From NCBI GenBank assembly GCA_016791365.1, contig JAEUMT010000025.1, positions 1-64,000 on the forward strand: a stretch of 64,000 nucleotides of DNA. The letters run 5' to 3'. Below the pieces are notes generated by a model that was not told where the DNA came from, did no database searches, and saw only the letters and a program-made list of their open reading frames with translations. This document shows, piece by piece, positions 15,538 through 52,931 of this stretch. Each line of letters starts with the position of its first letter. The first letter of the stretch is position 1. The position numbers and the translations under genes are program-made. Origin of the DNA: Hyphomonadaceae bacterium (GTDB taxonomy: Bacteria; Pseudomonadota; Alphaproteobacteria; Caulobacterales; Aquidulcibacteraceae).

Positions 15538-15733
15538 GCAGGCGCCGGTCTATCATCCCGAGGTTTCGCTCTCCTAACGCCCGATCGCGACGGCTGAATT
15601 TTGGGTTTTGGCGCGTCTTTCGGGGTGCTCGGGCCAACTTGTCGCCTGTGGGCTGCCCGGGCTCCTGGCGCCACGCATTCGATGCTTTATAGAAACGAAG
15701 CGTCCGCCTGGGGCGCCCAAGCTGGGGACGGCC

Positions 15734-17479
15734 ATGGCCGGAAAGGCCGAAGATTTAGCGACTTCGAGCACGCTCAAGGCTGCGCTGGAGGCGTGCCGGC
15801 GCCACATCGGCTTTGTCATCCTGTTCAGCGCCTTCCTGAACCTGCTGTATCTGGCGCCCTCACTTTACATGCTCCAAGTCTATGACCGCGTGCTCGCCTC
15901 CGGCGGGCTGCTTACGCTGGTCTATTTGTCCATCGTACTGATCGCGAGCTTGGCGGCTCTGGCGTTCCTGGATGGGACGCGGATGCGCTTGCTGCTTGCG
16001 ATGGCCCGCAGACTTGATCGCATCCTGTCGCCATTCGTGCTGCGCGCGGCTCTGGACCGGGAAGGCCGGCAGGCGGCCGGCAACGCGCACATCATTCGCG
16101 AGTTCGATTCATTGCGCAGCGCGCTCAGCGGCCCGCCCGCGCTCGCCGCCGTCGATGCGCCGTGGGCGCCGATCTATATCGGCGTCTGCTTTCTCATCCA
16201 CCCATGGATCGGCGCGCTTGCCCTGTTTGGCGGCGCGGCGCTTGTCGTGATCGCGCTCATCAACCAGCGCGCGATGCATCGCGCGCTGCGGGCCAACGAA
16301 GACGCCTCCGGCGCGATGTACGCGCTACAAATGTCGGACGCCAACCAAGGTGACGCAGCGCGCGCGCTCGGCATGCAGAGCCGCCTGGTGAACCGGCAAC
16401 TCAAAGCCCGCCTTGCGCTGACGGAAGCGACAAACGTTGCCGGCAATGCCAATACGCGTTATTCGGCGGCGACGAAGTTCGCGCGCCTGGTACTGCAATC
16501 GGCCGCTTTGGGATTGGGTGCGTTTCTGGCGCTGCGCCAGGACATCTCCGCAGGCGGCATCATCGCTTCATCGATCTTGTGTTCGCGCGCGTTTGCACCG
16601 CTTGAGCTCATCGTCGGCGCCTGGCGGCAATTTGAACAAGGCCGCCAAGCCTACGGCATTCTGACCCGTGTTCTGCGCAGCCAGGAAGGTCAGCGCGATT
16701 TTACCAGCCTGCCGGCGCCGCGCGGCGTTTTGAGCATGGAGGGCGTCACGGTCAGGTCGCCGGCTGGCGATCGCTTGCTGCTGGCGAACGCGACGTTCCG
16801 CGGCGAACCTGGCGACATCATCGGCGTGCTCGGCCCGAGTGGTGCGGGCAAAACCACGCTGTTGCGCGCCGTCGCCGGCGCCTCGCTGCCCGACGGCGGC
16901 GCGGTACGCATCGACGGCGCCAAGATGACAGATTGGGAGCCGGATCGGCTCGGTAGATATATCGGCTATTTGCCGCAAGAGGTGGCGCTTTTTGGCGGCA
17001 CCGTTGGTCAGAACATTTCCCGCTTCGACAGCGGCGTTGGTGAAGACGTCGACGCATCGATCATCAAAGCCGCAAAGTCGGCGGGCGCCCATGAAATGAT
17101 CCTCGCGCTCCCGCGCGGCTACGACACCGAGATCGGCCCGAATGGGCGCGGCCTTTCAGCCGGACAAGCGCAACGCGTGGCCCTCGCACGCGCGCTTTAC
17201 GGCGACCCGGTGCTGCTGGCGCTCGATGAACCGAACTCACACCTGGATGGTGACGGCGAAACGGCGCTGATCAACGCGCTGAAAGACGCAAGCGCGCGCG
17301 GAGTCTGCAGCGTCATCGTCGCGCATCGCACCGGTTTTATCAGCCACGTGAACAAGCTGATGATCGTTACCGATGGCCGTATCGATGCGTTCGGACCACG
17401 CGACACGATCCTTGCTCGCCTGAATCCGGGCGTGGGCCCTCGCCCGATCGCGGTGCCGAATGAAGGGTCGCGGCCATGA
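15734..17479 (+). CDS. Type I secretion ABC transporter (PrtD/RsaD-like permease-ATPase)
   Basis: Inner-membrane ATPase of a type I secretion system, 581 residues, the usual PrtD length. The N-terminal membrane domain has about five to six hydrophobic segments starting HIGFVILFSAFLNLLYLAP. The ATPase domain has Walker A GPSGAGKTT (Lys373), signature LSAGQAQRVALARAL, Walker B VLLALDEPNSHLD and the H-loop VIVAHR. No C39 domain is present, which fits RTX exporters. ATG 15734 is chosen because PrtD proteins start shortly before this point and the upstream codons read as noise. It overlaps the adaptor gene by ATGA. Confidence 0.93.
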   Translation: MAGKAEDLATSSTLKAALEACRRHIGFVILFSAFLNLLYLAPSLYMLQVYDRVLASGGLLTLVYLSIVLIASLAALAFLDGTRMRLLLAMARRLDRILSPFVLRAALDREGRQAAGNAHIIREFDSLRSALSGPPALAAVDAPWAPIYIGVCFLIHPWIGALALFGGAALVVIALINQRAMHRALRANEDASGAMYALQMSDANQGDAARALGMQSRLVNRQLKARLALTEATNVAGNANTRYSAATKFARLVLQSAALGLGAFLALRQDISAGGIIASSILCSRAFAPLELIVGAWRQFEQGRQAYGILTRVLRSQEGQRDFTSLPAPRGVLSMEGVTVRSPAGDRLLLANATFRGEPGDIIGVLGPSGAGKTTLLRAVAGASLPDGGAVRIDGAKMTDWEPDRLGRYIGYLPQEVALFGGTVGQNISRFDSGVGEDVDASIIKAAKSAGAHEMILALPRGYDTEIGPNGRGLSAGQAQRVALARALYGDPVLLALDEPNSHLDGDGETALINALKDASARGVCSVIVAHRTGFISHVNKLMIVTDGRIDAFGPRDTILARLNPGVGPRPIAVPNEGSRP

Positions 17480-18747
17480 GCATCGACTTCCTGACGCGGC
17501 AGCCGGTACGCGAATCCGAACTCGACACCGGCGGCGACGATTCCGGCGGCAGCGAAATTCGCGCCGGCGTGATCGCCCTTCTGGTGTTCTTTGTGGGCTT
17601 TGGCGGCTGGGCCGCATTCGCACCGCTGGACGCCGCTGTTGTCGCGCCCGGCGTCATTGTCGTGTCCGGCAACCGGCAAACGGTGCAGCACCGCGACGGC
17701 GGCGTCGTCTCGGATATCGCCGTCAAAGAGGGTGATCGGGTCGAACAAGGCCAGGTCCTGATTGAATTGGGTTCGCCGGAATTGGTGGCTCAGGAGCAAG
17801 CCCTCCTCTCGCAAGTCGTGGACCTGCAGATGCAGCGCGAGCGGCTGACGGCGGAACGCACTGGCGCCGGCGCTCTGCAACGGCCGGCGGAATGGGACTC
17901 GCTGACGCCCGAGGATCGCCTCGTCGCTGACGCAGCTTTCGAACGGCATCGCCGCGAAGCGCGCACCGGCGCCTGGAGCGCCTTCGACGCCCGCATCGTT
18001 GGCTATCGCGGTGAAATCGCCTCGCTAAACCGCCAGGAACGGCTGCTTAACGAAGAACTCTCAGGCATGCGCGAACTTGCAAGCGAGCAGCTTGTGCCGA
18101 TGACGCGCGTGCGCGCACTTGAGCGCAGCCTGGCCGAGTTGCAAGGACGGCGCGCGGAACTCACGTCTCTCATCGCGTCAACGCAACAGGAACGGTACGA
18201 GGATTTGCGCCAGGTTGATGCGCGCCTGGCGGAATTGAGCCCGCAACTCGCCGGCGCACGCGAGCGTCTTGAACTCACGCGGCTGCGCGCTCCAACGGAC
18301 GGCGTCGTCGTTGGCCTGCAGGTGCATACGGTCGGCGGCGTGGTGCGCGCCGGCGATCGGTTGATGGACATCGTGCCGGAGGGGCAAGATCTCATCGTTG
18401 AGGCGCGCGTCGAACCTGAATCCGCTGACAACCTTGCCGTGGGACAACGCACCGAAGTTCGCATCACCGCATTCGGCGGGCGTAACCTGCCCATCGTCTA
18501 TGGCCGCGTGCGCCAGGTTTCGGCGGACCGCTTCGTCGATGAGCGAACCGGACAAGGATATTTCCTAACTCAAGTCGCTGTGCCGCCGGAAGAACTCCAG
18601 CGGCTGACGGCAGCGGCGGGCGACGAACATCGCCTCCGCGCGGGCCTCTCCGCGCAAGTCGTAATCCCCACGCGCAAGCGGACAGCGCTGCAGTATTTGG
18701 TTGAGCCTCTCAATCAAACGCTCTGGCGCTCGCTGCGAGAGGAATGA
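17476..18747 (+). CDS. HlyD family type I secretion adaptor protein
   Basis: A periplasmic membrane-fusion protein of 423 residues linking the ABC protein to the TolC-like channel. It has one N-terminal transmembrane helix (residues about 31-50, GVIALLVFFVGFGGWAAFAP). A lipoyl half follows (VQHRDGGVVSDIAVKEGDRV), then a long alpha-hairpin region rich in Glu/Arg/Leu (about 90-265), and the second lipoyl half ELTRLRAPTDGVVVGLQVHT. The C-terminal beta-barrel includes GQRTEVRITAFGGRNLP. It is flanked by ATGA overlaps on both sides, giving strict translational coupling. Confidence 0.93.
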   Translation: MSIDFLTRQPVRESELDTGGDDSGGSEIRAGVIALLVFFVGFGGWAAFAPLDAAVVAPGVIVVSGNRQTVQHRDGGVVSDIAVKEGDRVEQGQVLIELGSPELVAQEQALLSQVVDLQMQRERLTAERTGAGALQRPAEWDSLTPEDRLVADAAFERHRREARTGAWSAFDARIVGYRGEIASLNRQERLLNEELSGMRELASEQLVPMTRVRALERSLAELQGRRAELTSLIASTQQERYEDLRQVDARLAELSPQLAGARERLELTRLRAPTDGVVVGLQVHTVGGVVRAGDRLMDIVPEGQDLIVEARVEPESADNLAVGQRTEVRITAFGGRNLPIVYGRVRQVSADRFVDERTGQGYFLTQVAVPPEELQRLTAAAGDEHRLRAGLSAQVVIPTRKRTALQYLVEPLNQTLWRSLREE

Positions 18748-20057
18748 AGAACATGAGAATCCTGTTCGCTTCGATCGCTCTTGTCCCGGCGATATTGGCG
18801 CCGTGCCCCGCTTCCGCGGATACGTTGAACGACGCCCTGGTCGCGGCGCATGCCAACAATCCGAACCTGGAAGAAGCCAGATTAGCCGTCCGCTCGGCGC
18901 GCGAAGGCCGCGCGCAAGCGGTTGCCAACTATCTTCCCTCGGTGGGCATTAGCGGCAGCGCCGGCATGCAGAGCGTCGAGAGTGAGACGACAAGCATCTT
19001 CGGGCCGTCAACCACCCAACGCGACCTGGAGCCGACAAACGCAACGGCCCAGGTGACTCAGCAATTGTTCACGGGCTTTCGCCGTAGCGGCCAGGCTCGA
19101 TTGGCGGACGCGAACATTGCCGGCGCGAACGAAGGCTTGCGCGCTCGTGAGCAGGACGTGCTGCTCGCGGCGGTCAACGCCTATGTCGGCGTGATGCGCG
19201 ACCAGGAAATCGTCCGCCTGCGCGAAGAACATGTGGCCGGGCTCAACCGTTTGCTTTCGGGCACGCGCCGGCGCCTCGACGTTGGCGAGGTCAGCCGCAC
19301 CGATGTCGCGCAGGCGCAGACCCGGCTTGCCGGTGCGCGCGCCAATCTGGCCCGTTCACGGGCTGACCTTGAGACCTCACAGGCCCAATACATCGCCATC
19401 GTCGGGCGCGCGCCGGTGGGCCTTACGCCGGTGGCTGCTTTGCCTCAAACGCCGCATTCCCTTGAAGAGGCCGTGGCCCAAGCCGACGACCGCCATCCGG
19501 ACCTCGGGCAAGCGGTGTCCCAAGAACGGGCGGCGCGCGCGCAAGTGACAATCGAACGCTCGGCTCTGCTGCCGCAGGTTTCCGTGGTTGGCCGCGTCGA
19601 CGAAAATCGCGACTTCAGCACGACGGAAACGCGCCGCGAAAGTTCGAGCGCGGTGGCGCAATTCAGCGTGCCGCTGTTCGAAGGCGGGTTTGCCTGGTCC
19701 CGGACGCGGCAGAGCCGGATCAACGTCGAACGCGCCGAAGCGCGCACTGAAGCGCAACGCCGTGAGATCATCGCCAATGTGACGTCGGCCTGGAGCAACC
19801 TCGCCGCCAGCCGAGAAATCCTCGCCGCCGCCCACGAGCAAGTCGAGACTTCAGCGATTGCGGTCGAAGGCGCGGAACGCGAACGCGGTCTTGGATTGCG
19901 CTCCACGCTTGATGTGCTCGACGCCGAAGAAGAGGCGCGCAACGCGCAAATCGGCCGCGCGCGCGCAAACGCTGACTCCGTCGTCGCCTCCTACGCCTTG
20001 ATGGCCGCCACCGGCGCCCTCACCCTCGACACCGCGACGGGTCAAGCACCCAACTAA
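18744..20057 (+). CDS. TolC family outer membrane channel protein
   Basis: The outer-membrane component of the type I system, 437 residues. The signal peptide is MRILFASIALVPAILAPCPASA, with the first Met at 18744 or the second at 18753. The mature protein shows the internal duplication of TolC: DALVAAHANNPNLEEARLAVRSAREG at the start of repeat one, VGEVSRTDVAQAQTRLAGARANL closing it, and the parallel ERGLGLRSTLDVLDAEEEARNAQ in repeat two. VTQQLFTGFRRSGQ and SVPLFEGGFAWSR are the beta-barrel strands. It is the last gene of the three-gene ATGA-coupled operon. Confidence 0.93.
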   Translation: MKNMRILFASIALVPAILAPCPASADTLNDALVAAHANNPNLEEARLAVRSAREGRAQAVANYLPSVGISGSAGMQSVESETTSIFGPSTTQRDLEPTNATAQVTQQLFTGFRRSGQARLADANIAGANEGLRAREQDVLLAAVNAYVGVMRDQEIVRLREEHVAGLNRLLSGTRRRLDVGEVSRTDVAQAQTRLAGARANLARSRADLETSQAQYIAIVGRAPVGLTPVAALPQTPHSLEEAVAQADDRHPDLGQAVSQERAARAQVTIERSALLPQVSVVGRVDENRDFSTTETRRESSSAVAQFSVPLFEGGFAWSRTRQSRINVERAEARTEAQRREIIANVTSAWSNLAASREILAAAHEQVETSAIAVEGAERERGLGLRSTLDVLDAEEEARNAQIGRARANADSVVASYALMAATGALTLDTATGQAPN

Positions 20058-20108: not shown

Positions 20109-21179
20109 TCAGCCGGCGCTGCGAAGATCGCGTTGTAGCCGCTCATCCAATTGCGCGAAGACACGCTGGCGCAGAATGGAATTATCCATTGTGCGCGCCA
20201 GCGCTTCAAGATGCGCCACATCGCCGGCTGTGAGGTGAGCGTCGGCGACTTTCGAACTCACACGGTAAACGTGCGGCAAGCTGCTCGGCTCGGCGTTTTC
20301 ATACTCGTCGATGAGCTGCTCGCTGAGCTTTTCGCCCGGACGCAAGCCGGTGAACACGATCTCGATTTCCTTGCCGGATTTCGCGATCATGCGACGACCG
20401 AGCTCGACGATCGACACCGCGTCGCCCATCTCCATAAAGTAAGCGCCGCCATCGGAATTTAGCGCCGTCACGCTGAGGATGAGGCCGACGGCTTCGTCCG
20501 CCGTCATGAAGAAGCGCTCCATCCTTGGGTGCGTGACCTCAAGGGGACCGCCCGCTTCAATCTGAGCCTGGAAGCGCGGCAGCACCGAGCCTTGCGATCC
20601 CAACACATTCCCAAAGCGGACAGCCTTGAGCCGCATGCTGCGGGCGTGCTCAAGCGCAAAGCCCGATATATAGAGCTCGGCCAGCCGCTTCGTGGCGCCC
20701 ATGACGCACGTAGGCGCGGCTGCTTTGTCCGACGAAATCAGCACAAATTGCGATGCGCCGGCGCTTGCCGAGGCAACGGCCGCGTTGCGGACGCCAACCA
20801 AATTGGTCAGCACGCATTCCACGGGGTGCCGCTCACCCATATGCACGTGCTTCAACGCGGCCGCGTGAATCACGATGTCCGGTTCCGCGCGGCGCACACA
20901 AGCTTCAAGACGCGCCGCGTCACGCACGTCACAGAGAATTTCCGTCGTCTGGAGCGCCGGATGCGCACGACGCACCGCTTCGACCACCTCGAGCAAGCCG
21001 TGATCGAACTGATCGAGCATCGCCAGATGGGCGCATCCCAGCGTCGCAAGCTTCAAGCTCACGGCCGAGCCAATGCTGCCCGCCGCGCCCGTGATCAGAA
21101 CGCGCTTATTCGCGAAATAAGCGCCAAGATCGGCGACCGCGAACCGCCCCTCCGGCCTCTGCAAAAGCTCGTTCGGCAT
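20109..21179 (-). CDS. Polysaccharide biosynthesis dehydratase, CapD/FlaA1-like (soluble form)
   Basis: A NAD-dependent UDP-sugar 4,6-dehydratase-like enzyme of 356 residues. The Rossmann motif LITGAAGSIGSAVSLKLA begins at about residue 28. It has the CapD-specific ISSDKAAAPTCVMGATKRLAE block, in which Met-Gly-Ala-Thr-Lys replaces the usual YxxxK Tyr. The C-terminal FTGLRPGEKLSEQL motif is typical of the family. It lacks the four N-terminal transmembrane helices of full-length CapD/WbpM, so it is the soluble PseB/FlaA1-type version. It converges on the TolC-like gene and is divergent from the large repeat protein gene. Confidence 0.85.
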   Translation of the reverse strand: MPNELLQRPEGRFAVADLGAYFANKRVLITGAAGSIGSAVSLKLATLGCAHLAMLDQFDHGLLEVVEAVRRAHPALQTTEILCDVRDAARLEACVRRAEPDIVIHAAALKHVHMGERHPVECVLTNLVGVRNAAVASASAGASQFVLISSDKAAAPTCVMGATKRLAELYISGFALEHARSMRLKAVRFGNVLGSQGSVLPRFQAQIEAGGPLEVTHPRMERFFMTADEAVGLILSVTALNSDGGAYFMEMGDAVSIVELGRRMIAKSGKEIEIVFTGLRPGEKLSEQLIDEYENAEPSSLPHVYRVSSKVADAHLTAGDVAHLEALARTMDNSILRQRVFAQLDERLQRDLRSAG

Positions 21180-21548: not shown

Positions 21549-23972
21549 ATGCAACTGAAGCTTTTGAGTTCAGTCTGCGCCGTTGCTCTGGGTCTGGCGT
21601 TCGCGCCGGCCGCCTGGGCGAATGGCGGGACCGATGCGGAAGGTAACGCGGTCGCGGTCGAAGGCAGCACCGCGGCTGTCGACAACAGCGAAACCGAGAG
21701 CGAATTTGAAGCGCGCGACTCTTTCAACTCGCAAAGCGCGGATTCTTATTCGAACCAGGAATCCACAACCGTCGACACGACGGTCGAAGATTCTTTCAAC
21801 GAAGAAGTGAAGAACGAGAACGAGACGACGACCGAAGACTCGTTCAACACCGACAACTCGAACACCACGGCGAACTTCAACGCCACGGACAACGCCAACA
21901 ACTCGACGAACGTTGACGTCGCCGACAGCGGCAACGGCAATTTCTCGGGCAATGGCGACGACAACTCGACCGACATCGCCGATAGCGGCAATGGCAACTT
22001 CTCGGGCAACGGCGACCACAGCGATTCTTCGACGAACGTTGATGTGGCCGACTCGGGCAACGGCAACTTCTCCGGCAACGGCGTTGACAACTCAACCAAC
22101 ACCGACAGCTCGGATAGTTCGCTGAACGTTGCGGTCGCTGACAGCGGCAACGACAACTCAGCCGACAACTCGGTCGAGCACGACGACTCCTACAACACCG
22201 ACATCGAGAACGACGAATCCTACAACACCGTCGCCTCGGGCAACACGCTGACCGACAACAGCGACAACTCGCTGAACGTCGCCGACAGCGGCAACGACAA
22301 CTCGGCCGACAACTCAGTCGAGCACGAAGACTCCTACAACACCGACATCGAGAACGACGAATCCTACAATACCGTCGCCTCGGGCAACACGCTGACCGAC
22401 AACAGCGACAATTCGCTGAACGTCGCCGACAGCGGCAACGACAACTCGGTCGACAACTCGGTTGAGCACGAAGATTCCTATAATACGGATGACTCGCACA
22501 ATACCGACGTCGAAAACGACGAATCGTACAACACCGTCGCTTCCGGCAACACACTGACCGACAACAGCGACAACTCGCTGAACGTCGCCATCGCTGACAG
22601 CGGCAACGACAACTCAGTCGATAACTCGGTTGAGCACGAAGACTCCTACAACACCGACGATTCGAACAACATCGATGACTCGTTCAACGCCGATAACTCG
22701 GTCGAGAACGAAGAATCGTTCAACACGGTCGCCTCGAACAACACGCTCGCGGACGACCAGTCGATGAACTCGGGTTCGAACGTGGCCGGCGACGACCAGT
22801 ACCAGGCGTCGGGCGGCTCGAACATTGTTGGCGACGATCAATACAGCGGCTCCAACGTTGCTGAAGGCGATCTGAACCAGGCTTCGGGCGACTCGAACAT
22901 CGTTGGCGACGACCAGACCAACGTGAACGGCAACTATGCCGGCGACGAACTGAACCAGGCTTCAGGCGACGCGAACATTGTTGGCGACGATCAAACCAAC
23001 AATAACGGCACGATGGTTGGCGACGATCAAACGCTGGCCGGCGGCCACATCGCTGGCGACGATCAAACGATCGCCGACAACGGTTCGAACCTGGTTGGCG
23101 AAGACCAAACCAACAACAACGGCACGATCGTTGGCGAAGACCAAGACAACTCGGTCAACACCGACAACTCGGTTGAGAACGAGGAATCGTTTAATACCGT
23201 CGCGTCGAACAACACTGTCGCTTCGGGCAACACGCTGACCGACAACTCGGTTGAGAATGACGACTCGTTCAACACCGACAACTCGGTCGAAAACGATGAC
23301 TCGTTTAATACCGATAACTCGGTTGAGAACGAAGAATCGTTCAACACCGTGGCCTCGGGCAACACTGTCGCCTCGAACAACACGCTGACCGACAACAGCA
23401 ACAACTCTGTCAACGTCAACGTGGCCGACAGCGGCAACGACAACTCGACCAGCAACGACGAATCCTTCAACACCGACAACTCGGTTGAGAACGATGACTC
23501 GTTCAACACTGATAACTCGGTTGAGAACGACGACTCGTTCAACACCGACAACTCCGTCGAGAACGAAGACTCCTTCAACACCGACAATTCGGTCGAGAAC
23601 GATGACTCGTTCAACACCGACATCGACAACTCGGTCCGCAACGAAGACTCGGGCAACACCGATAACTCGGTGCGCAACGAAGATTCGGGCAACACCGACG
23701 TCGAAGACTCCTACAACGCTGACAACTCGACCACCACGATGGTCGTCACGTCGATGGAGCTCGGCGCGGTCGTGACTGACATCGAAATCGATGCCCACGG
23801 CTTCAAGGAAGGCGAAATCGCCACCGGCGCCATCTCGATGGACGGCGGTGCGTTTGCCAACTTCGGCGGCATCAACACGGCCAGCATGAACACCGGTATG
23901 GGCTCGGCTAACCAAGCGGCGACAGCCGTCGGCGCCAACGCCAATATCGATTTCGGCAACGGCACTCCGTAA
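21549..23972 (+). CDS. Sec-exported Asn/Ser/Asp-rich repeat protein, candidate fibre subunit
   Basis: An 807-residue protein unlike any family I can name with certainty. It has a signal peptide MQLKLLSSVCAVALGLAFAP with cleavage near AWA. The mature chain is almost free of Lys/Arg, has no Cys, and is very acidic. Zones are: DSGNGNFSGNG repeats (about 125-180); 48-residue repeats (about 197-390) built from NSVEHEDSYNTD and SYNTVASGNTLTDNSDNSLN; GDDQ-containing repeats (about 403-530); and hexads alternating DNSVEN and DDSFNT (about 536-717). A non-repetitive tail of about 77 residues ends with an INTASMNTG...Q segment. ATG 21549 is fixed by GGAGG. Its composition and the C39 partner suggest a Fap- or curli-like amyloid fibre, which is inference. 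Confidence 0.85.
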   Translation: MQLKLLSSVCAVALGLAFAPAAWANGGTDAEGNAVAVEGSTAAVDNSETESEFEARDSFNSQSADSYSNQESTTVDTTVEDSFNEEVKNENETTTEDSFNTDNSNTTANFNATDNANNSTNVDVADSGNGNFSGNGDDNSTDIADSGNGNFSGNGDHSDSSTNVDVADSGNGNFSGNGVDNSTNTDSSDSSLNVAVADSGNDNSADNSVEHDDSYNTDIENDESYNTVASGNTLTDNSDNSLNVADSGNDNSADNSVEHEDSYNTDIENDESYNTVASGNTLTDNSDNSLNVADSGNDNSVDNSVEHEDSYNTDDSHNTDVENDESYNTVASGNTLTDNSDNSLNVAIADSGNDNSVDNSVEHEDSYNTDDSNNIDDSFNADNSVENEESFNTVASNNTLADDQSMNSGSNVAGDDQYQASGGSNIVGDDQYSGSNVAEGDLNQASGDSNIVGDDQTNVNGNYAGDELNQASGDANIVGDDQTNNNGTMVGDDQTLAGGHIAGDDQTIADNGSNLVGEDQTNNNGTIVGEDQDNSVNTDNSVENEESFNTVASNNTVASGNTLTDNSVENDDSFNTDNSVENDDSFNTDNSVENEESFNTVASGNTVASNNTLTDNSNNSVNVNVADSGNDNSTSNDESFNTDNSVENDDSFNTDNSVENDDSFNTDNSVENEDSFNTDNSVENDDSFNTDIDNSVRNEDSGNTDNSVRNEDSGNTDVEDSYNADNSTTTMVVTSMELGAVVTDIEIDAHGFKEGEIATGAISMDGGAFANFGGINTASMNTGMGSANQAATAVGANANIDFGNGTP
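22137..22592 (+). repeat. Tandem 144-bp coding repeats within the fibre-like gene
   Basis: Units starting at 22137 and 22281 are each exactly 144 bp (48 codons). The third, starting at 22425, is 168 bp because eight codons are inserted, and a fourth partial unit starts at 22593. Each begins GC(T/C)GACAGCGGCAACGACAA. The near-identity at DNA level suggests recent expansion by slippage or unequal exchange. Confidence 0.8.
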
Positions 23973-23983
23973 GGCCTAAGGGT

Positions 23984-24012
23984 CAGGCCGGTGGGCTCGT
24001 CCCGCCGGCCTG
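23984..24012 (+). terminator. Stem-loop between the repeat protein gene and the downstream genes
   Basis: CAGGCCGGTGGG, a five-base loop and CCCGCCGGCCTG form a 12-bp stem with one mismatch, starting 11 bases after the TAA. A T-rich but interrupted stretch (TTCTTGCCTTTT) follows. It lies between genes that look like one operon, so it may attenuate transcription or protect the 3' end of the abundant upstream message. Confidence 0.6.
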
Positions 24013-24046
24013 GTTCTTGCCTTTTGCAGAAGGAAGGCGCGCATCA

Positions 24047-24442
24047 ATGAAGAGCGTGACCCAAGTGAGAGGGATCCTGATCGCGGCGGCGGTATTGGCG
24101 TCAGCCAGTGCAGCTTCGGCGCAGCAAGCAGCCCTCACCGCTTCGGCCCCGCCGGCGCCAGCCGACGGAACGGAGCTTCTGAGTTTGGAAGATATGGGCG
24201 CCCTCTCTGGAGGGACGGGCGTCACGGTGGTGGTCGATACGGGGCAGGTTCTGACCGCGACGAACACAGGCAATTCGGTGACCGGCGATGTCGTCGGCTC
24301 CGGGCAAGTGAACATCGGGTCGGGCGCTTTTTCCGGCTATGACGGGATCGGCAACTTCGTGATCAACACCGGACACAACAACAACCTTCAATCTAGCATG
24401 AACGTATCGATCGTGCTGGCGCCTCCCGCGCCGGGTCCATGA
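24047..24442 (+). CDS. Small Sec-exported protein with a double-glycine leader motif
   Basis: A 131-residue protein. The Sec signal peptide is about residues 1-26 (ILIAAAVLASASAASAQQ). It is followed by ELLSLEDMGALSGG, which fits the double-glycine leader consensus (Leu-12, Ser-11, Met-7, Leu-4, Gly-Gly). The predicted mature part is Asn/Gly/Val-rich and ends GNFVINTGHNNNLQSSMNVS plus a Pro tail. A strong ribosome site AGGAAGG precedes ATG 24047. The stop overlaps the start of the C39 peptidase gene (ATGA), tying the two together. Likely a peptidase substrate and minor fibre or nucleator component. Confidence 0.8.
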   Translation: MKSVTQVRGILIAAAVLASASAASAQQAALTASAPPAPADGTELLSLEDMGALSGGTGVTVVVDTGQVLTATNTGNSVTGDVVGSGQVNIGSGAFSGYDGIGNFVINTGHNNNLQSSMNVSIVLAPPAPGP

Positions 24443-25206
24443 TCGGCGCCGGAGATCATACTTTGAGCGCGCCGTTCCGCTTCTTGCGGAGCGGCGTTGC
24501 GCTCGCCGCGGCGCTCGCCGCATTGTGCCTCGCTTCGCCGGCCGCCGCGCAAGTGCGCACGCACGGCGAAGGCGGCGGCAGCTACACTATTTCAGTCACG
24601 AGCTGGCGCGACATTCCGTTCCGCACCGTCGTGCGCCAGCAATACGATTATAGCTGCGGCTCGGCCGCGGTCGCGACTCTGCTGCGCTTTCACTACGGCA
24701 TGGCCGTGAACGAAGGCGAAGTGTTCCAGGCGATGTACGCGCAAGGTGATCAGGCGCGCATTCGCTCGGTCGGCTTTTCAATGCTGGACATGCGCGACTA
24801 CCTGCAGGCGCGCGGCTTCAATGCCGACGGATTGCGCCTTTCGCTCGATCGCCTCGCCAGCCTCGAAGTCCCGGCGATCGCGCTCATCACCCACGACAAT
24901 TATCGCCACTTCGTTGTGGTGAAAGGCATCAGCGCCGATCGCGTGCTGGTTGGCGACCCGACATTCGGCATTCAAAGTTACTCGCGCGAGGAATTCACGC
25001 GAATCTGGAACGGCGTTGTCCTCGCCATCCGCCAACCGCCCGAAGGCTGGCCGCCGCCGACCTATAATCGCGCCGAAGAATGGCGCCCCTGGTCGCGCGC
25101 GCCGCTGAACATGGCGCAGCAGCCGATCTCAGGCATCGATCTTACGCTCTCATTCCGTGAACTGTATCAGATCACGCCGCTCACGCCTGCCGTGCCGGGA
25201 TCGTAG
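24439..25206 (+). CDS. Sec-exported C39 family peptidase (stand-alone, FapD-like)
   Basis: A 255-residue protein with an N-terminal signal (GVALAAALAALCLASPAAAQ) and one papain-like C39 domain. The oxyanion Gln is in VRQQYDYSCGSAA with catalytic Cys73, catalytic His157 is in NYRHFVVVKG, and Asp173 is in VGDPTFG. C39 domains normally sit at the N-terminus of bacteriocin ABC exporters and cut after Gly-Gly. This one has no transporter domain and should act in the periplasm, like FapD of Pseudomonas amyloid operons. Both neighbouring small proteins have Gly-Gly motifs. It overlaps the upstream gene by ATGA and abuts the downstream one. Confidence 0.88.
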   Translation: MIGAGDHTLSAPFRFLRSGVALAAALAALCLASPAAAQVRTHGEGGGSYTISVTSWRDIPFRTVVRQQYDYSCGSAAVATLLRFHYGMAVNEGEVFQAMYAQGDQARIRSVGFSMLDMRDYLQARGFNADGLRLSLDRLASLEVPAIALITHDNYRHFVVVKGISADRVLVGDPTFGIQSYSREEFTRIWNGVVLAIRQPPEGWPPPTYNRAEEWRPWSRAPLNMAQQPISGIDLTLSFRELYQITPLTPAVPGS

Positions 25207-25761
25207 ATGCGCACCCTCCTTCTCACCGGCGCGTTTATGGCAATGCTGGCTGCGCCGGCTTGGGCGGACGATTGGGGAAGCGACGTCGAAGTGATGAGCG
25301 TCGAAGATCTCGAGGCGCATCGCGGCGGGTTTGAGATCGGCAATCTGAGCGTCAATTTTGGCGCAACCGTCACCACACTCGTGAACGGCGTTCCCGCCCT
25401 CGTGACTACGCTCACATGGACGGACGTAGGCTCGTTGGTCCAACAGACCGTCGGCGATGTCGGGCAGAACATCGCCAACATGACGCAAGAGCAACGTACC
25501 GCGCTCGGCCTTGATGGATTGGGCGATGCGGGCGGCGTCGTAATCAATGACGAAGCCGGGGTCACAGCCTTGGTTCACAACATTACCGAAGGCTCCCTGC
25601 AGAACATCATCATAAACAATGCGACAGGCCGGGACCTGTCCCAGCAGGTGGATGTGACGCTGACGCTGCCGGGCTTCGAGCTGGTCCAGGACGCGCTGGC
25701 GATCGAGATGTTCGGTATCCGTATCAACGACGACCTGCGCGGGTTCGACCCGGGCGGCTAG
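25207..25761 (+). CDS. Second small Sec-exported protein with a double-glycine leader motif
   Basis: A 184-residue protein whose ATG directly follows the stop of the peptidase gene. The signal peptide is MRTLLLTGAFMAMLAAPAWA. Then comes EVMSVEDLEAHRGG, matching the leader consensus at Met-12, Ser-11, Leu-7 and Gly-Gly. The mature portion (about 145 residues) is mostly beta-prone with LQNIIINNATGRDLSQQVDV, similar in pattern to the end of the first small protein. It ends FDPGG. Likely a second peptidase substrate. The family is not recognised. Confidence 0.8.
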   Translation: MRTLLLTGAFMAMLAAPAWADDWGSDVEVMSVEDLEAHRGGFEIGNLSVNFGATVTTLVNGVPALVTTLTWTDVGSLVQQTVGDVGQNIANMTQEQRTALGLDGLGDAGGVVINDEAGVTALVHNITEGSLQNIIINNATGRDLSQQVDVTLTLPGFELVQDALAIEMFGIRINDDLRGFDPGG

Positions 25762-25875: not shown

Positions 25876-28485
25876 ATGCGTATTTCTGGCGGCGTTTGGC
25901 GGGCTGGCGAGTTCTTCTGGGACGGCCCGGAATCTGGTTCCAGCGCGCTGCTCGGCGGCGACGATCTTGGCGGCCGGCAGAACGCGATCACCCCACCGGT
26001 CCAACAAATCGTTGAACCGCCGGATATCGCTGGCAACACCTCCACGACGGCGACGCTGACGATCGGCGGCTCCGAGACCGGCGCGCTGCAAGTGTTCGGC
26101 GATGATGATTGGTTCGCGGTTCAACTGGTCGCCGGCCAGAGCTACGTGTTTACGCTCACACCGGGCGCCTTGTCGCCCATGCAAGACCCCTATCTCGAAA
26201 TCTACAACTCCGCCGGTTCGCTCATCGGCTTCGACGATGACGGCGGCGTAGGCACCAATTCGATCCTGCGTTGGACGGCCACCGAGTCAGGCACGTTCTA
26301 TATCAACGCACGTGCATGGGAAGAAGGCGGCACAAGCCCGAGCTATTCCGGCACCGGTTCGTACACGATCACCGGCGCGCTCGGCGCCCCACAAAATCCG
26401 CTCGATACAATCAATCTCGGTTTCGCGGCGCCGTTGCACATCGACGTGTATTTCAGCGTTGGCACCGAAACCCAGTCGTTTGGACCGCCAGGCAATCAAA
26501 CGAGCGTTACGTCGCTGCGGAGTTGGACGGCCGCCGAGATCGCGCAAGCCATGGCCGCGCTGCAGGTGTATTCAAGCTATACGAACCTGACGTTCGCGCA
26601 GACCGCAACGCAAGGAAGCGCCGAATGGGTGCTTACTTTGGGTGACCTGGAGTCCGGCACGCTCGGCTGGTTCGCGACATATAATGGCGTTGGCTACGGC
26701 GCGTTCGCACCGGACGGGACCGGCTGGTCCACGGCGCCTGGCGGCGGATTGAATCAGGGCGGCCTTGGCTGGGTGACGCTCATCCATGAATTCGGTCACG
26801 GCCTCGGCCTCGCGCACCCGCACGACAACGGCGGCGTGAGCGAAGTGATGCAAGGCGTCACCGGGCCGTTCAATTCGGTTGGAAGCTTCGCGCTCAACCA
26901 GGGCGTTTACACGACCATGACCTATAATGACGGTTGGGTCTCGCAATTTGGCGGCGGCCAAACCGGATACGGATCTCAAGGCACGCCAATGGCGCTCGAT
27001 CTGGCGCTGCTGCAGCAGCGCTACGGAGCCAATGCGACCGCGAATGCGGGCGACACGTTCTACGTCTTGCCGACGGCGAACCAAGCCGGGACATTCTTCA
27101 GCGCCATTTGGGACACGAGCGGCAACGATACGATCGTGCAAACAGGCTCCGTGGGCGCGACCATCGATCTTCGTGCGGCGACGATCCAGAATGCCGTCGG
27201 CGGCGGCGGATGGGTGTCGTTCGTGACCAGCATCAACGGCGGCTACACGATCGCCAATGGCGTCGTCATCGAAAACGCAACCGGCAGCACGGGCGCCGAC
27301 ACGCTGACGGGCAACAGCGCCGCAAACACGCTGACCGGCAACGGCAACAACGACGTACTCCGCGGCGGCGCAGGCAACGACACGTTGATCGGCGGCGCAG
27401 GCGTCGATCAGATGTTTGGCGAAGACGGCGACGACGTCATTTTCTGGGATTTCGTCGACAGCGAAGCCAACGTGCAAGGCGGCGCGGGGACTGACACGTT
27501 CGCCTTCACCAGCGGCAGCGCGCCGACGACGTTCAATCTCGTGGCGCAGGGTTTTGAAGCAGCCGAGGGCCGCTTCACCGACACAGGCTCAAATCCATGG
27601 GCCACGCGCACCGACGCGTACGACACGCTCTGGCGCCTGGACGTATCGACCACCGTCAACGACAACGGCACACGCGAAATCACCGATTACGACCAGGCCA
27701 ACACCGTGGGCTGGTCGAGCTTCGTCACCCGCCAGGATGCGCTGAGCCGCACCACCGAAACCATCCTCACCTATGATGACGGCGTCCGCGACATCACCAA
27801 TTACGACGCGGATAGCTCTGTCTTCTGGACCAGCTTCGTCACGCGTCAGGATGCGTTGGCCCGCACCACCGAGACGCTGCTCATTCACGACGACGGCACC
27901 CGCGACACCACCAATTTCGACGGCGACAACACCCAGTTCTGGACCAGCTTCGTCACCCGTCGCGATGCGCTTGCCCGCACCACCGAGAGCCTCCTGATCC
28001 ACGATGACGGCGTCCGCGACACCACCAATTACGACGCTGACAATTCACAATTCTGGACCAGCTTCGTCACCCGCCGCGACGCGCTTGCCCGCACCACCGA
28101 GAGCCTGCTCATTCACGATGACGGCGTGCGCGACACCACCAATTACGACGCCGATAATTCGCAATTCTGGACTAGCTTCGTCACCCGCCGCGATGCGCTC
28201 GGCCGGCAAACCGAGAGCCTGCTGATCCACGACGACGGCACCCGCGACACCACCAATTTCGATCCCGAGAACGCCGTCTTCTGGTCAAGCTTCGTGACCC
28301 GGCGCGACAATCTGGGCCGCACCGCCGACACCCTGCTCATCTATGACGACGGCCGCCGCGATTCCACCGACTACGACGAGGCCAACGTCCACGACTGGGC
28401 CAATGTCCTCTACCGCTATGACAGCGGCGGCATCCTCCAGCAGACCGTCATCACCTACGACGACGGACGCATCGAAATTATCTGA
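25876..28485 (+). CDS. Secreted M10 (serralysin-like) metalloprotease with RTX and 38-residue repeats
   Basis: A zinc protease of 869 residues. Residues about 55-165 form a PPC-type domain (SETGALQVFGDDDWFAVQL). The metzincin domain follows with HEFGHGLGLAH (His304, Glu305, His308, His314) and the Met-turn region TTMTYND. RTX nonapeptides GADTLTGNS...GGAGNDTLIGGAGVDQMFG lie at about 470-525. From about 575 to the end there are eight 38-residue units of the WTSFVTRRDALGRTTESLL type. There is no N-terminal signal, so C-terminal type I secretion by the upstream transporter is expected. The start follows a GAAGGGG sequence. Confidence 0.9.
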   Translation: MRISGGVWRAGEFFWDGPESGSSALLGGDDLGGRQNAITPPVQQIVEPPDIAGNTSTTATLTIGGSETGALQVFGDDDWFAVQLVAGQSYVFTLTPGALSPMQDPYLEIYNSAGSLIGFDDDGGVGTNSILRWTATESGTFYINARAWEEGGTSPSYSGTGSYTITGALGAPQNPLDTINLGFAAPLHIDVYFSVGTETQSFGPPGNQTSVTSLRSWTAAEIAQAMAALQVYSSYTNLTFAQTATQGSAEWVLTLGDLESGTLGWFATYNGVGYGAFAPDGTGWSTAPGGGLNQGGLGWVTLIHEFGHGLGLAHPHDNGGVSEVMQGVTGPFNSVGSFALNQGVYTTMTYNDGWVSQFGGGQTGYGSQGTPMALDLALLQQRYGANATANAGDTFYVLPTANQAGTFFSAIWDTSGNDTIVQTGSVGATIDLRAATIQNAVGGGGWVSFVTSINGGYTIANGVVIENATGSTGADTLTGNSAANTLTGNGNNDVLRGGAGNDTLIGGAGVDQMFGEDGDDVIFWDFVDSEANVQGGAGTDTFAFTSGSAPTTFNLVAQGFEAAEGRFTDTGSNPWATRTDAYDTLWRLDVSTTVNDNGTREITDYDQANTVGWSSFVTRQDALSRTTETILTYDDGVRDITNYDADSSVFWTSFVTRQDALARTTETLLIHDDGTRDTTNFDGDNTQFWTSFVTRRDALARTTESLLIHDDGVRDTTNYDADNSQFWTSFVTRRDALARTTESLLIHDDGVRDTTNYDADNSQFWTSFVTRRDALGRQTESLLIHDDGTRDTTNFDPENAVFWSSFVTRRDNLGRTADTLLIYDDGRRDSTDYDEANVHDWANVLYRYDSGGILQQTVITYDDGRIEII
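27598..28485 (+). repeat. Eight tandem 114-bp coding repeats, copy 1
   Basis: The segment encodes eight units of 38 residues (the first and last degenerate) with the pattern W-x-SFVTR-x-DALGRTTE, IHDDGxRDTTN and a closing D-x-x-F. Adjacent units are strongly similar at DNA level. The same array recurs at 30610-31497 in the next gene, including the terminal stretch up to the stop codon. Confidence 0.9.
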
Positions 28486-28566: not shown

Positions 28567-31497
28567 ATGCCGCAATATCCGGCTGTCATTCAGCTGTCGC
28601 AACTCAACGGTGCGAATGGCTTCCGATTCTTGGGCGACACAGTGCTGGGCAACGCCGGCTTTTCTGTCGCTTCCGCCGGCGATGTGAACGGCGATGGCTT
28701 CGAGGACATCCTCGTTTCCGCGCCCAGCGCCAACCAGCCGGTGGATGGCGCGGGCGCCGTCTATGTAATCTTCGGGCGCGCCGCCGGATTTACCGCAACC
28801 CTCAATCCCGCCGATCTCAACGGCGCGAATGGATTTCGATTTGAAGGCGCCTTTGACGACAGCCGCCTCCGACAGGTCTCCAGCGCCGGCGACTTCAACG
28901 GAGATGGCTACGGCGATATCATCTTCTCTACCGACCACGCTGCGACGGATGGCGGCGCATATGTCGTGTTCGGCCGTTCGAGCTTTTCGGCGGTTACCTC
29001 GGTTAGCGCACTGAACGGCGCGCACGGATTTTTCGTGCCGCAATCGCAAGGCTCATCGGTCGGACACGTTGATTTCAATGACGATGGATTGAGCGACCTC
29101 ATCATCGGCGCGTCACACCAATCGCTATCCCCTGAAACCAACGCCCAGGGCATCACCTACGTCATTTACGGCACGCGCAACGCGATGAGTTCAACGTTCG
29201 ATGTCGCAACACTGAACGGCTCGAACGGTTTTCGCATGGTCGGCGTCGCGTTGGGCGCGACGGCGGGTACTGACGTCGGAGGCATTCAGGATTTCAACGG
29301 CGACGGCAGAGAAGACCTCGTCATCACCGCGCCCAATGCGGACGTCGTCGTGGGATCAACTCGGCATGACGCCGGCATGACGTATGTGGTCTTTGGCAGG
29401 CAATCCGCCATGCCGGCGTCATTCGACCTGGGGTCTCTGGGCGCATTCCAGGGCGTTCGGGTGCTCGGCTCGGTTCAGAACAGCGCCCTCGGCGTCAGCG
29501 CCTCGGGCCTGGGTGACGTGAACGGCGACGGGTACGACGATCTCGGCATCGGCGCGCGCATGGATAATTTCGCAGGCCGCGTTTACGTCGTGCTCGGACG
29601 CGCTTCGCAACAGCAAATCGACATGGATCTTGCCGGTCCGCATCCCAATACGCTCACCACCATCACGATCGGCGCGTCCAGCTCCCATGCATACGAAGTC
29701 TCGGGCGTTGGCGACATCAACGGCGATGGATTCAATGACATTCTCATAGGCGCGTATGGCGGAGGCCAAGGCGCCGCTTATGTCGTGTTTGGTCAAGCGA
29801 CGATGCCGAGCGGCGTCAGCCTGAATTCACTCACCGGCGAGAACGGCTTCAAGCTGAGCGGCGCCGGACAATGGGTGGGTTTCACCGTCAGCAGCGGCGA
29901 CTTCAACGGCGACGGCTTCTCCGACATTCTTCTCGGTTCGCCACAATCGAGCAACGGCATCACAGGCGCCGGCGAGGCGTTCATCGTATTTGGCCGCGCG
30001 CCGGACGCGGCGGTTACGCGCGTCGGCTCGGCCGCCGCGCAGTCCATTCTCGGCGGCGCGTTTGGCGACACGCTCGATGGCAGAAATGGCGATGACACGC
30101 TGATCGGCAATGGCGGCGACGATGTGTTGATTGGCGGCCAAGGCGCGGACGCGCTCATCGGCGGCAACGGCAGCGACACCGCAAGCTACGCGAATTCGAA
30201 CTTTGCCTCCGGCACGCTGATAGATCTCGCCAACCCGGGCGTGAACGATGGCGAGGCCGCCGGCGATACCTACTCCGGCGTCGAGAATATTATTGGCACG
30301 TCACTCGGCGATACGATCAACGGCAACGAAGCCGACAATCGCCTTGAAGGCCGCAACGGCGACGATCGGCTCGAAGGGCGCAACGGCGCTGACACACTCG
30401 ACGGCGGCGCCGGCTCAGACTCACTTTTCGGCGGCGACGGCGACGATACCGTCTTCTACGACGCCTCGGACAATCAGGCGAACGTCCAAGGCGGCGCCGG
30501 CGCCGACACGCTCGTCTTCACAAGTGGCAGTGCGCCAACATCATTCAATTTGGCCTCCCATGGCTTTGAAGCTGCTGAAGGCCGGCTCACCGATACGGGC
30601 GCCAACGCGTGGGCGACACGCACCGAGATCTACGATGCGCTCTGGCGGCTCGATATCAGCACGTTGGTGAATGATGATGGCACAAGGGAGATCGTCGACC
30701 TTGATCAAATGAACAGCGTCAATTGGTCAAGTTTCGTGACCCGTCAGGACGCTCTGGGCCGCACCGTGGAAACGGTGCTGACGTATGATGACGGCGTCTA
30801 TGACGTGACCAATCTCGATCCCGTCAATGCGCAGTTTTGGACCAGTTTCGTTACACGCTACGATGCGCTCGGTCACACGACCGAGAGTCTGCTCATCCAC
30901 GACGATGGCACGCGCGATACAACCAACTTCGATCCTGATAATTCACAATTCTGGACGAGCTTCGTCACCCGCCGCGATGCGCTGGGCCGCACCACCGAAA
31001 GCCTGCTCATTCACGATGACGGCGTCCGCGACACCACCAATTACGACGCTGACAATTCGCAATTCTGGACCAGCTTCGTCACGCGGCGCGATGCGCTCGG
31101 GCGCACCACCGAAAGCCTCCTTATCCACGACGATGGCACCCGCGACACAACCAATTTCGACGGCGACGGTTCACAATTCTGGACCAGTTTCGTCACACGA
31201 CGCGACGCCTTGGGCCGCACGACAGAGAGCCTGCTCATCCACGACGACGGCACACGGGATACAACCAACTTCGATCCCGAAAACACGGTGTTCTGGGAGA
31301 GCTTCGTGACCCGCCGCGACGCACTAGGGCGAACGACAGACACTCTGCTCATCTATGACGACGGCAGACGCGATTCCACCGACTACGACGAGGCCAATGT
31401 TCACGACTGGGCCAACGTCGTCTATCGCTATGACGGCGGCGGCATCCTCCAGCAAACCGTCATCACCTATGACGACGGGCGCATCGAAATTATCTGA
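28567..31497 (+). CDS. FG-GAP/RTX surface protein with the same C-terminal 38-residue repeats
   Basis: A 976-residue secreted protein. Residues about 1-480 contain around seven FG-GAP (integrin alpha beta-propeller) units, for example VASAGDVNGDGFEDILVSAP then AVYVIFGRA. RTX calcium repeats (LDGRNGDDTLIGNGGDDVLI and a second block GDGDDTVFYD) lie at about 493-635. From about 682 to the end there are eight 38-residue units nearly identical to those of the protease upstream. No N-terminal signal is present, so it is a type I secretion substrate by inference. It may be an adhesin or Ca-binding surface protein. GGGGGGA precedes ATG 28567. Confidence 0.9.
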   Translation: MPQYPAVIQLSQLNGANGFRFLGDTVLGNAGFSVASAGDVNGDGFEDILVSAPSANQPVDGAGAVYVIFGRAAGFTATLNPADLNGANGFRFEGAFDDSRLRQVSSAGDFNGDGYGDIIFSTDHAATDGGAYVVFGRSSFSAVTSVSALNGAHGFFVPQSQGSSVGHVDFNDDGLSDLIIGASHQSLSPETNAQGITYVIYGTRNAMSSTFDVATLNGSNGFRMVGVALGATAGTDVGGIQDFNGDGREDLVITAPNADVVVGSTRHDAGMTYVVFGRQSAMPASFDLGSLGAFQGVRVLGSVQNSALGVSASGLGDVNGDGYDDLGIGARMDNFAGRVYVVLGRASQQQIDMDLAGPHPNTLTTITIGASSSHAYEVSGVGDINGDGFNDILIGAYGGGQGAAYVVFGQATMPSGVSLNSLTGENGFKLSGAGQWVGFTVSSGDFNGDGFSDILLGSPQSSNGITGAGEAFIVFGRAPDAAVTRVGSAAAQSILGGAFGDTLDGRNGDDTLIGNGGDDVLIGGQGADALIGGNGSDTASYANSNFASGTLIDLANPGVNDGEAAGDTYSGVENIIGTSLGDTINGNEADNRLEGRNGDDRLEGRNGADTLDGGAGSDSLFGGDGDDTVFYDASDNQANVQGGAGADTLVFTSGSAPTSFNLASHGFEAAEGRLTDTGANAWATRTEIYDALWRLDISTLVNDDGTREIVDLDQMNSVNWSSFVTRQDALGRTVETVLTYDDGVYDVTNLDPVNAQFWTSFVTRYDALGHTTESLLIHDDGTRDTTNFDPDNSQFWTSFVTRRDALGRTTESLLIHDDGVRDTTNYDADNSQFWTSFVTRRDALGRTTESLLIHDDGTRDTTNFDGDGSQFWTSFVTRRDALGRTTESLLIHDDGTRDTTNFDPENTVFWESFVTRRDALGRTTDTLLIYDDGRRDSTDYDEANVHDWANVVYRYDGGGILQQTVITYDDGRIEII
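30610..31497 (+). repeat. Eight tandem 114-bp coding repeats, copy 2
   Basis: This is a direct repeat of 27598-28485. The two arrays have the same number of units (eight), the same first unit (WATRT start) and the same last unit (WANV start, ending DDGRIEII). Only scattered substitutions distinguish them, showing a duplicated module shared by two otherwise unrelated proteins. Confidence 0.9.
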
Positions 31498-52337: not shown

Positions 52338-52931
52338 TCAGAAGTTCTCGTGCGCGAGAATGAGATCCGCAAGTTCCAGGTGCGGATCGCGGTAAGGCAC
52401 TTGCGCGTCATAGCCTGGGCCGGCGTAGCTGGCGGGCATTGCCGTCGCCTCTACCGGGGCCTGGATAATGTAGGATTCCACCGGCGCTTCCGCGAACGAA
52501 GCGGGCTCGCTCAGCGTGAGGCGCAAAGCGGCGTCCGGCGTTGCAATGCGAGCCACAGGCGCGCGCGACGGCGTGAAGGTTACGAGGCCATCACCCATGG
52601 CGAGCGAGCGCACGTGCTCAATCTTGTCGTCCGTCGCGGCGCGCGTGATTTCAAGCGAGGCGACCGTCGATGCGAGCTGACCGCGAATCTGGCTCAGCTC
52701 GGTTTGCGACAGCGGCGCAGGATACGCCGGCAGGTTTGCATAAGGGTTGTCAGCAGCGCTGGCGGTCGTGTCGACACCGAAACTAGACGCAAGCGTTTCG
52801 CCAATCATGCCGCCGAAACCGGCCGGCGAGATAAACGTCACAGCAAGAGCCGCGGCCGCGACGCCCGTGAGACCCGACTTGAAGATCGTGTCGCGCGCTT
52901 CGCGTTCGAAGTTCGAAGGCCGTCCCGCCAT
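52338..52931 (-). CDS. Membrane-anchored protein of unknown function
   Basis: A 197-residue protein with a basic cytoplasmic start (AGRPSNFEREARDTIFKSG) and one hydrophobic helix (LTGVAAAALAVTFISPAGFG). A long periplasmic part follows with a predicted helical segment (LSQTELSQIRGQLASTVASL, ATDDKIEHVRSLA) and a Pro/Ala-rich tail. It shares its layout and the [AS]TDDx(7-8)LA motif with the small protein at 62339. No family recognised. Confidence 0.7.
   Translation of the reverse strand: MAGRPSNFEREARDTIFKSGLTGVAAAALAVTFISPAGFGGMIGETLASSFGVDTTASAADNPYANLPAYPAPLSQTELSQIRGQLASTVASLEITRAATDDKIEHVRSLAMGDGLVTFTPSRAPVARIATPDAALRLTLSEPASFAEAPVESYIIQAPVEATAMPASYAGPGYDAQVPYRDPHLELADLILAHENF

Follow-up and report, generated by a model that had tools for sequence, protein, structure and literature searches.

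Here we report a four-gene locus of a Hyphomonadaceae bacterium whose likely product is a surface fibre or matrix, made through a relative of the Pseudomonas amyloid (Fap) pathway. The locus lies in a 64,000-nucleotide (nt) stretch of contig JAEUMT010000025.1 (hereafter the window; all coordinates are window positions) and encodes an acidic repeat protein, a stand-alone C39 cysteine peptidase and two small exported proteins, SEP1 and SEP2. Sequence comparisons make it likely, in our judgement, that the locus is a surface fibre or matrix secretion system and a sister of the Fap and Fil systems, with an unlinked porin and with leader removal by the C39 peptidase. Computation directly supports the gene calls and their conservation, the presence of leader motifs and of an intact catalytic site, and the existence and co-occurrence of the porin. 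An earlier note on this DNA had given the gene order here as repeat protein, SEP1, C39 peptidase and SEP2, with tight coupling of the last three, and the gene calls bear this out, all on the + strand: SEP1 and the C39 gene overlap by 4 bases (ATGA), and the C39 gene and SEP2 abut. All four proteins have a Sec-type start (signal peptides judged by eye). The features of the locus are as follows.

21549-23972, + strand: repeat protein, 807 amino acids (aa), with a Sec-type start and acidic N/D/S-rich repeats; ATG at 21549 with GGAGG upstream
23847-23969, + strand: conserved C-terminal module of the repeat protein, GAFANFGGINTASMNTGMGSANQAATAVGANANI..., with a profile match to the SEP1 C terminus (3e-8)
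23976-24020, + strand: strong RNA hairpin between the repeat gene and SEP1 (-31.6 kcal/mol)
24047-24442, + strand: SEP1, 131 aa, with a Sec-type start, a double-glycine leader and a C-terminal module resembling that of the repeat protein
24179-24214, + strand: SEP1 leader motif LSLEDMGALSGG, with a predicted C39 cut after GG
24439-25206, + strand: stand-alone C39 cysteine peptidase, 255 aa, with a Sec-type start and residues Gln67, Cys73, His157 and Asp173
25207-25761, + strand: SEP2, 184 aa, with a Sec-type start, a double-glycine leader and a beta-rich domain; aligns with FapE at the leader
25294-25329, + strand: SEP2 leader motif MSVEDLEAHRGG followed by F, with a predicted C39 cut after GG

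The C39 peptidase, the only one in the window genome, matches Pfam Peptidase_C39 with 85 bits (cut-off 22) and NCBIfam FapD with 149.3 bits, below the cut-off of 330. Its catalytic Cys, His and Asp residues and its oxyanion Gln are invariant in 86 of 86 C39 sequences. The double-glycine leaders of C39-ATP-binding cassette (ABC) exporters have a hydrophobic residue at -12, Leu or Met at -7, often a hydrophobic residue at -4, and Gly at -2 and -1. SEP1 and SEP2 carry leaders of this type and with the same spacing, fitting a C39 peptidase; unlike in the exporters, a Sec-type start precedes each leader, and the peptidase is exported as a protein in its own right. In the 77 aligned of 78 SEP2 sequences, position -1 is Gly in all 77, position -2 is Gly in 75 and position -3 is Arg in 74; all 77 have Leu or Met at -7, and 63 have Phe at +1. 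The corresponding counts for SEP1 (72 aligned of 79) are Gly at -2 in 65, Leu or Met at -7 in 71, and Gly or Arg at -1 in 40 and 27, respectively. A strict leader pattern matched 66/78 SEP2 and 26/79 SEP1 proteins versus 37/891 other genes (9/179 among those with a Sec-like start), and a relaxed pattern matched 51/78 and 45/79 versus 18/891 (7/179). In shuffled sequences, the strict pattern reached at most 15/78 for SEP2 and 9/79 for SEP1. The 52 called window genes gave three leader-pattern matches, including SEP1 and SEP2. The third, LSQTELSQIRGQ, lies in a 197-aa protein without a Pfam match (52338-52931, - strand), which is possibly a further C39 substrate or a chance match.

The earlier note had named membership of the small proteins in an unrelated known family as a refutation, and the family searches gave no such result: neither SEP1 nor SEP2 has a Pfam or NCBIfam match up to E 1. 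A predicted SEP2 structure (mean predicted local distance difference test (pLDDT) score 82, predicted template modelling score 0.65; structure alignment of 57 of 77 SEP2 sequences) contains beta strands over residues 16-127 of the 158 modelled, with the leader as a short helix at a pLDDT of only about 60-65. A fold search of the PDB with this model gave no match at E 0.001 or better. A profile alignment of SEP2 with FapE falls at the leader (2e-6, probability 89%, 32 columns), and the C-terminal part of SEP1 aligns both with SEP2 (2e-8) and with a central portion of FapE (4e-5, probability 70%). At the leader site, FapE has Leu at -12, Asp at -10, Leu at -4, Arg at -3 and Gly at -2, each in 22 of 22 sequences, as well as Leu or Met at -7 in 22. 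Position -1 is Lys or Arg in all 22, whereas the window leaders have GG. The 22 FapE sequences came from 24 Fap stretches, which we infer to be of a Pseudomonas-like genus, after omission of one in the wrong frame (L181) and one from the same place as another (L154, L143); the curated FapA-F models confirmed one of these loci as true Fap.

The absence of a visible FapF-like porin, on which the earlier note had based a different secretion route, holds for the window and fails for the genome. An alignment of eight porins of relatives found a single match in the window genome, on another contig (C30, 4e-151), and the PDB matches of this porin profile are FapF only (E up to 0.01; best 3e-58). The window-genome porin scores 150.5-158.6 bits against NCBIfam FapF, for which the cut-off is 700. 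It adjoins the same two genes, CoA-transferase-like by eye, in 7/7 genus genomes printed. A different route for want of a porin is thus not supported, because the genome has an unlinked FapF-like porin.

The four genes are kept together in relatives, and a FapF-like porin accompanies most related loci; a second refutation named in the earlier note, lack of joint conservation of the genes, thus did not come about either. Among the best 80 of 135 relatives found by a C39 scan of public sequences, the C39 peptidase is present in 80, SEP1 in 78, SEP2 in 77, the repeat protein in 68 and the porin in 69, with a median C39-porin gap of 707 bases. These loci are mostly from Proteobacteria (Caulobacteraceae, Halomonadaceae, Oxalobacteraceae, Marinobacter, an Erythrobacter and others), with related sets in Caulobacter, Phenylobacterium and Asticcacaulis. 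SEP1, SEP2 and the porin were picked by profile, and the repeat protein by composition and place, as the Asn-rich protein upstream of SEP1. Because the SEP1 and SEP2 profiles were iterated on these same loci and came to overlap with each other and with the repeat proteins, position decided which single partner was taken at each locus. By their C39 peptidases, L109 and L110 belong to the Fap clade, and the SEP1 pick of L109 is probably a Fap subunit; two other loci (L033 and L037) are from one assembly, and the repeat-protein pick of L061 looks wrong. The 11 loci lacking the porin comprise the seven close relatives L031-L037 and four stretches of 5.8-12.6 kb (L063, L065, L070 and L108).

Within the genus (30 genomes, including the window's own), seven genomes have the C39 peptidase, nine a full-length porin, six both and 20 neither (Fisher p 0.0009, not corrected for relatedness). 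Two genomes (G020 and G023) have apparently lost the locus, as they retain SEP2 remnants, which in G023 include an in-frame stop. Across 289 genomes of the class, we found SEP2 in nine, the porin in 15 and both in eight, counts that may be low because only part of the candidates was scored in some genomes. SEP2 and the porin lie within 2 kb of each other in 7/8 genomes with both, the exception being the window genome.

The repeat protein is a candidate for the main subunit of the fibre or matrix. With the first 25 residues left aside, it consists of 18.9% N, 14.7% D and 14.1% S, and it contains 169 Asp and Glu versus 6 Lys and Arg residues. Its 12-residue period (example unit, DNSVENDDSFNT) has an autocorrelation of 0.24, versus 0.149 as the highest of 100 shuffles. 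In the profile comparison, SEP1 and the repeat proteins match in their C-terminal modules; the shared module may serve recognition or assembly, and SEP1 is a candidate minor subunit or nucleator. A hairpin of -28 kcal/mol or stronger follows the repeat gene in 47 of 68 loci versus 28 of 603 other gene ends (inspected in 25 loci and tested in 68 of 69). This hairpin is a possible attenuator or processing element, and may keep the repeat subunit in excess. A promoter and terminator scan gave results at about chance level.

Together, these features suggest a mechanism in which all four proteins would enter the periplasm via Sec, and the periplasmic C39 peptidase would strip the double-glycine leaders from SEP1 and SEP2. 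The unlinked FapF-like porin would then pass the repeat protein, and probably also SEP1 and SEP2, to the outside, with SEP1 as a putative minor subunit and SEP2 as a putative FapE-like component.

The system resembles Fap in its exported FapD-related C39 peptidase, the alignment of SEP2 with FapE at the leader, the FapF-type porin and the low-complexity exported repeat protein. To this extent the Fap-like character proposed in the earlier note stands, through the C39-FapD match, the SEP2-FapE alignment and the FapF-like porin in related loci; by the tests made, however, the locus is not an ordinary Fap operon. An unrecognized operon of that kind seems improbable to us, even though relatives of FapD, FapE and FapF are all present and separation of fapF from the operon is, in the part of a 2013 survey cited here, among the commonest deviations, with loss of fapA also common (PMC3792158). 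The four window proteins, to which the search for FapA, FapB and FapC was confined, have no match to NCBIfam FapA, FapB, FapC or FapE up to E 1, and the repeat protein has no match to the Fap minimal repeat (X15GX4NX3GX6NX7), having 12-residue acidic repeats instead. Against FapC, the C-terminal module scores 0.065 for the repeat protein and 0.019 for SEP1; neither value is significant, although the repeat-protein score narrowly surpasses all 20 column-shuffled controls, the best of which reached 0.10. Moreover, SEP1 has its own leader and C-terminal module, the porin is unlinked in the window's genus, and the FapD and FapF scores are far below their cut-offs (149 of 330 and 150.5 of 700 bits). 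In a tree of C39 peptidases, the window enzyme falls outside the Fap clade (100/100), which contains 11 FapD proteins, five Halomonadaceae second copies and two Paraburkholderia loci, and which stands beside and among the SEP-type C39 peptidases. The tree comprises 66 hand-chosen rows (11 of 23 FapD), midpoint-rooted for drawing and with a long outgroup branch. In five Halomonadaceae loci (L079, L083, L093, L094 and L106), a SEP-type set and a Fap-clade C39 peptidase with a porin occur side by side, a few kb apart.

About equally improbable is a reading in which the neighbouring type I system (15608-20057) has the repeat protein as its adhesin, with release regulated by the C39 peptidase. The ABC, HlyD and OEP genes of this system adjoin the locus and also occur near three genus loci (L032, L036 and L037), with ABC and HlyD genes near a fourth (L035). 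These genes are near 0/73 non-genus loci (BLAST E 1e-15), whereas the porin is present in 69/80; the Sec-type start of the repeat protein also speaks against this reading, as do the two RTX proteins encoded downstream (25876-28485 and 28567-31497), which are more natural substrates. We rejected type I export of the repeat protein, since the type I genes are near only four close relatives among the 80 loci. The two RTX proteins have a serralysin-type C-terminal match, FG-GAP repeats and a very similar repeated C-terminal region ending in DDGRIEII, and are likely type I substrates. Much of the remaining window (1497-63794) looks by sequence like surface polysaccharide synthesis and export genes, one of which (20109-21179) was tested.

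We give still less weight to SEP1 and SEP2 as secreted bacteriocin- or signal-like peptides released by the C39 peptidase, an explanation that would account for the double-glycine leaders and for the closest PDB sequences to the C39 peptidase being those of bacteriocin ABC transporter peptidases. Each leader follows a Sec-type start, the peptidase stands alone and a FapF-type porin co-occurs; furthermore, SEP1 shares its module with the repeat protein and SEP2 has a predicted beta-rich domain. Least probable of all is export of the repeat protein by a CsgG-like protein: the genome has one CsgG-family gene (57.4 bits, cut-off 20.8), which is unlinked to the locus and is accompanied by its own repetitive protein, whereas in most relatives the set and the FapF-like porin are linked. 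Curli were rejected as a match for the locus, as the four proteins have no curli family match and the sole CsgG-family gene is on another contig (L184, G000:C1). There it lies beside a gene for a repetitive 401-aa protein, perhaps as a separate curli- or holdfast-anchor-like system.

The locus resembles Fil, a putative pilus system, in its C39 peptidase, similar to FilB (116 of 475 bits), and in its porin, similar to FilC (94.1 of 630 bits), both below cut-off, and differs in its subunits and gene content. FilA, a surface fibre subunit of Acinetobacter Tol 5 according to the cited portion of PMC11784438, has no match among the window proteins. Three FilA-like proteins have the same leader spacing, ending in GQ after the signal, and were selected by this motif in 12 loci; the same screen also gave one SEP2-like and one chance-looking match, and only one of the three (L155) was checked as FilA (51 of 220 bits). 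The Fil-type locus L155, matched below cut-off by the FilA, FilB and FilC models, occurs in one genome (G166) alongside a true Fap operon.

Several points weigh against a fibre or matrix system of the proposed kind. Export, cleavage, the order of the steps and fibre formation are what we infer from the computed features. The FapD and FapF models reach wider families, as parts of PMC3792158 indicate, and among 14 control genomes they also give below-cut-off matches in 7 (FapD) and 3 (FapF). The leader of SEP1 is looser than that of SEP2, given the Arg at -1 in 27/72 aligned sequences, and 7/79 SEP1 proteins lack a residue at -1. Leader conservation is partly selected because the SEP families were gathered with leader-containing profiles; the pattern search covered up to 600 residues of SEP2 versus 250 of the controls, and the pattern for the 52-gene scan was written after the motifs were known. 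A crude Sec rule is satisfied by 62/79 SEP1 and 51/78 SEP2 proteins. The SEP2-FapE match is short at 32 columns, and SEP2 has no NCBIfam FapE match. AlphaFold2 gave the repeat protein a pLDDT of 34 and no confident fold. Three genus genomes (G007, G010 and G019) have the full porin without the locus, one that is 82% complete (G003) has the locus without a detected porin, and one class genome (G319) has SEP2 matches and no porin at the threshold used.

More tentatively, and with somewhat less than even confidence, we suggest that Fap, Fil and the window system may be branches of one old outer-membrane route, consisting of a periplasmic C39 peptidase, a FapF-type porin and exported partners with a double-glycine-type leader after the Sec signal, in which leader removal would license export. 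Pseudomonas Fap would then be a derived branch with a degenerate leader, in which FapD cuts FapE at the matching site; the derived position of Fap depends on the root of the C39 tree, which is weak. The fapD-fapF pair was already known outside Fap, given that homologues of the two are adjacent in five additional phyla according to the cited part of the 2018 review (PMC6173800), and the 2013 survey places Fap, in the part cited, only in Beta-, Gamma- and Deltaproteobacteria (PMC3792158).

As far as the cited sections of a 2017 study go (PMC5557850), FapD activity is essential, its target is unclear and the Fap proteins have no canonical C39 site. The same sections suggest FapE as a FapD substrate from GG and GA motifs and from missing N-terminal peptides, with no FapE peptides from about the first 70 residues; a cut at the FapE leader site would explain these missing peptides only in part. 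The 2018 review lists, in the portion cited, no proven FapD substrate (PMC6173800). Among openly licensed papers, we found none on these leaders or on the window locus. FapE as a candidate FapD substrate is thus not new (PMC5557850, in the sections cited); what the locus adds is that two exported proteins encoded next to a FapD relative carry a conserved, near-canonical leader, which places the predicted cut at a defined residue and points to the matching position in FapE. The predicted cleavage tags on SEP1 and SEP2 may help to show what FapD-like proteases cut.

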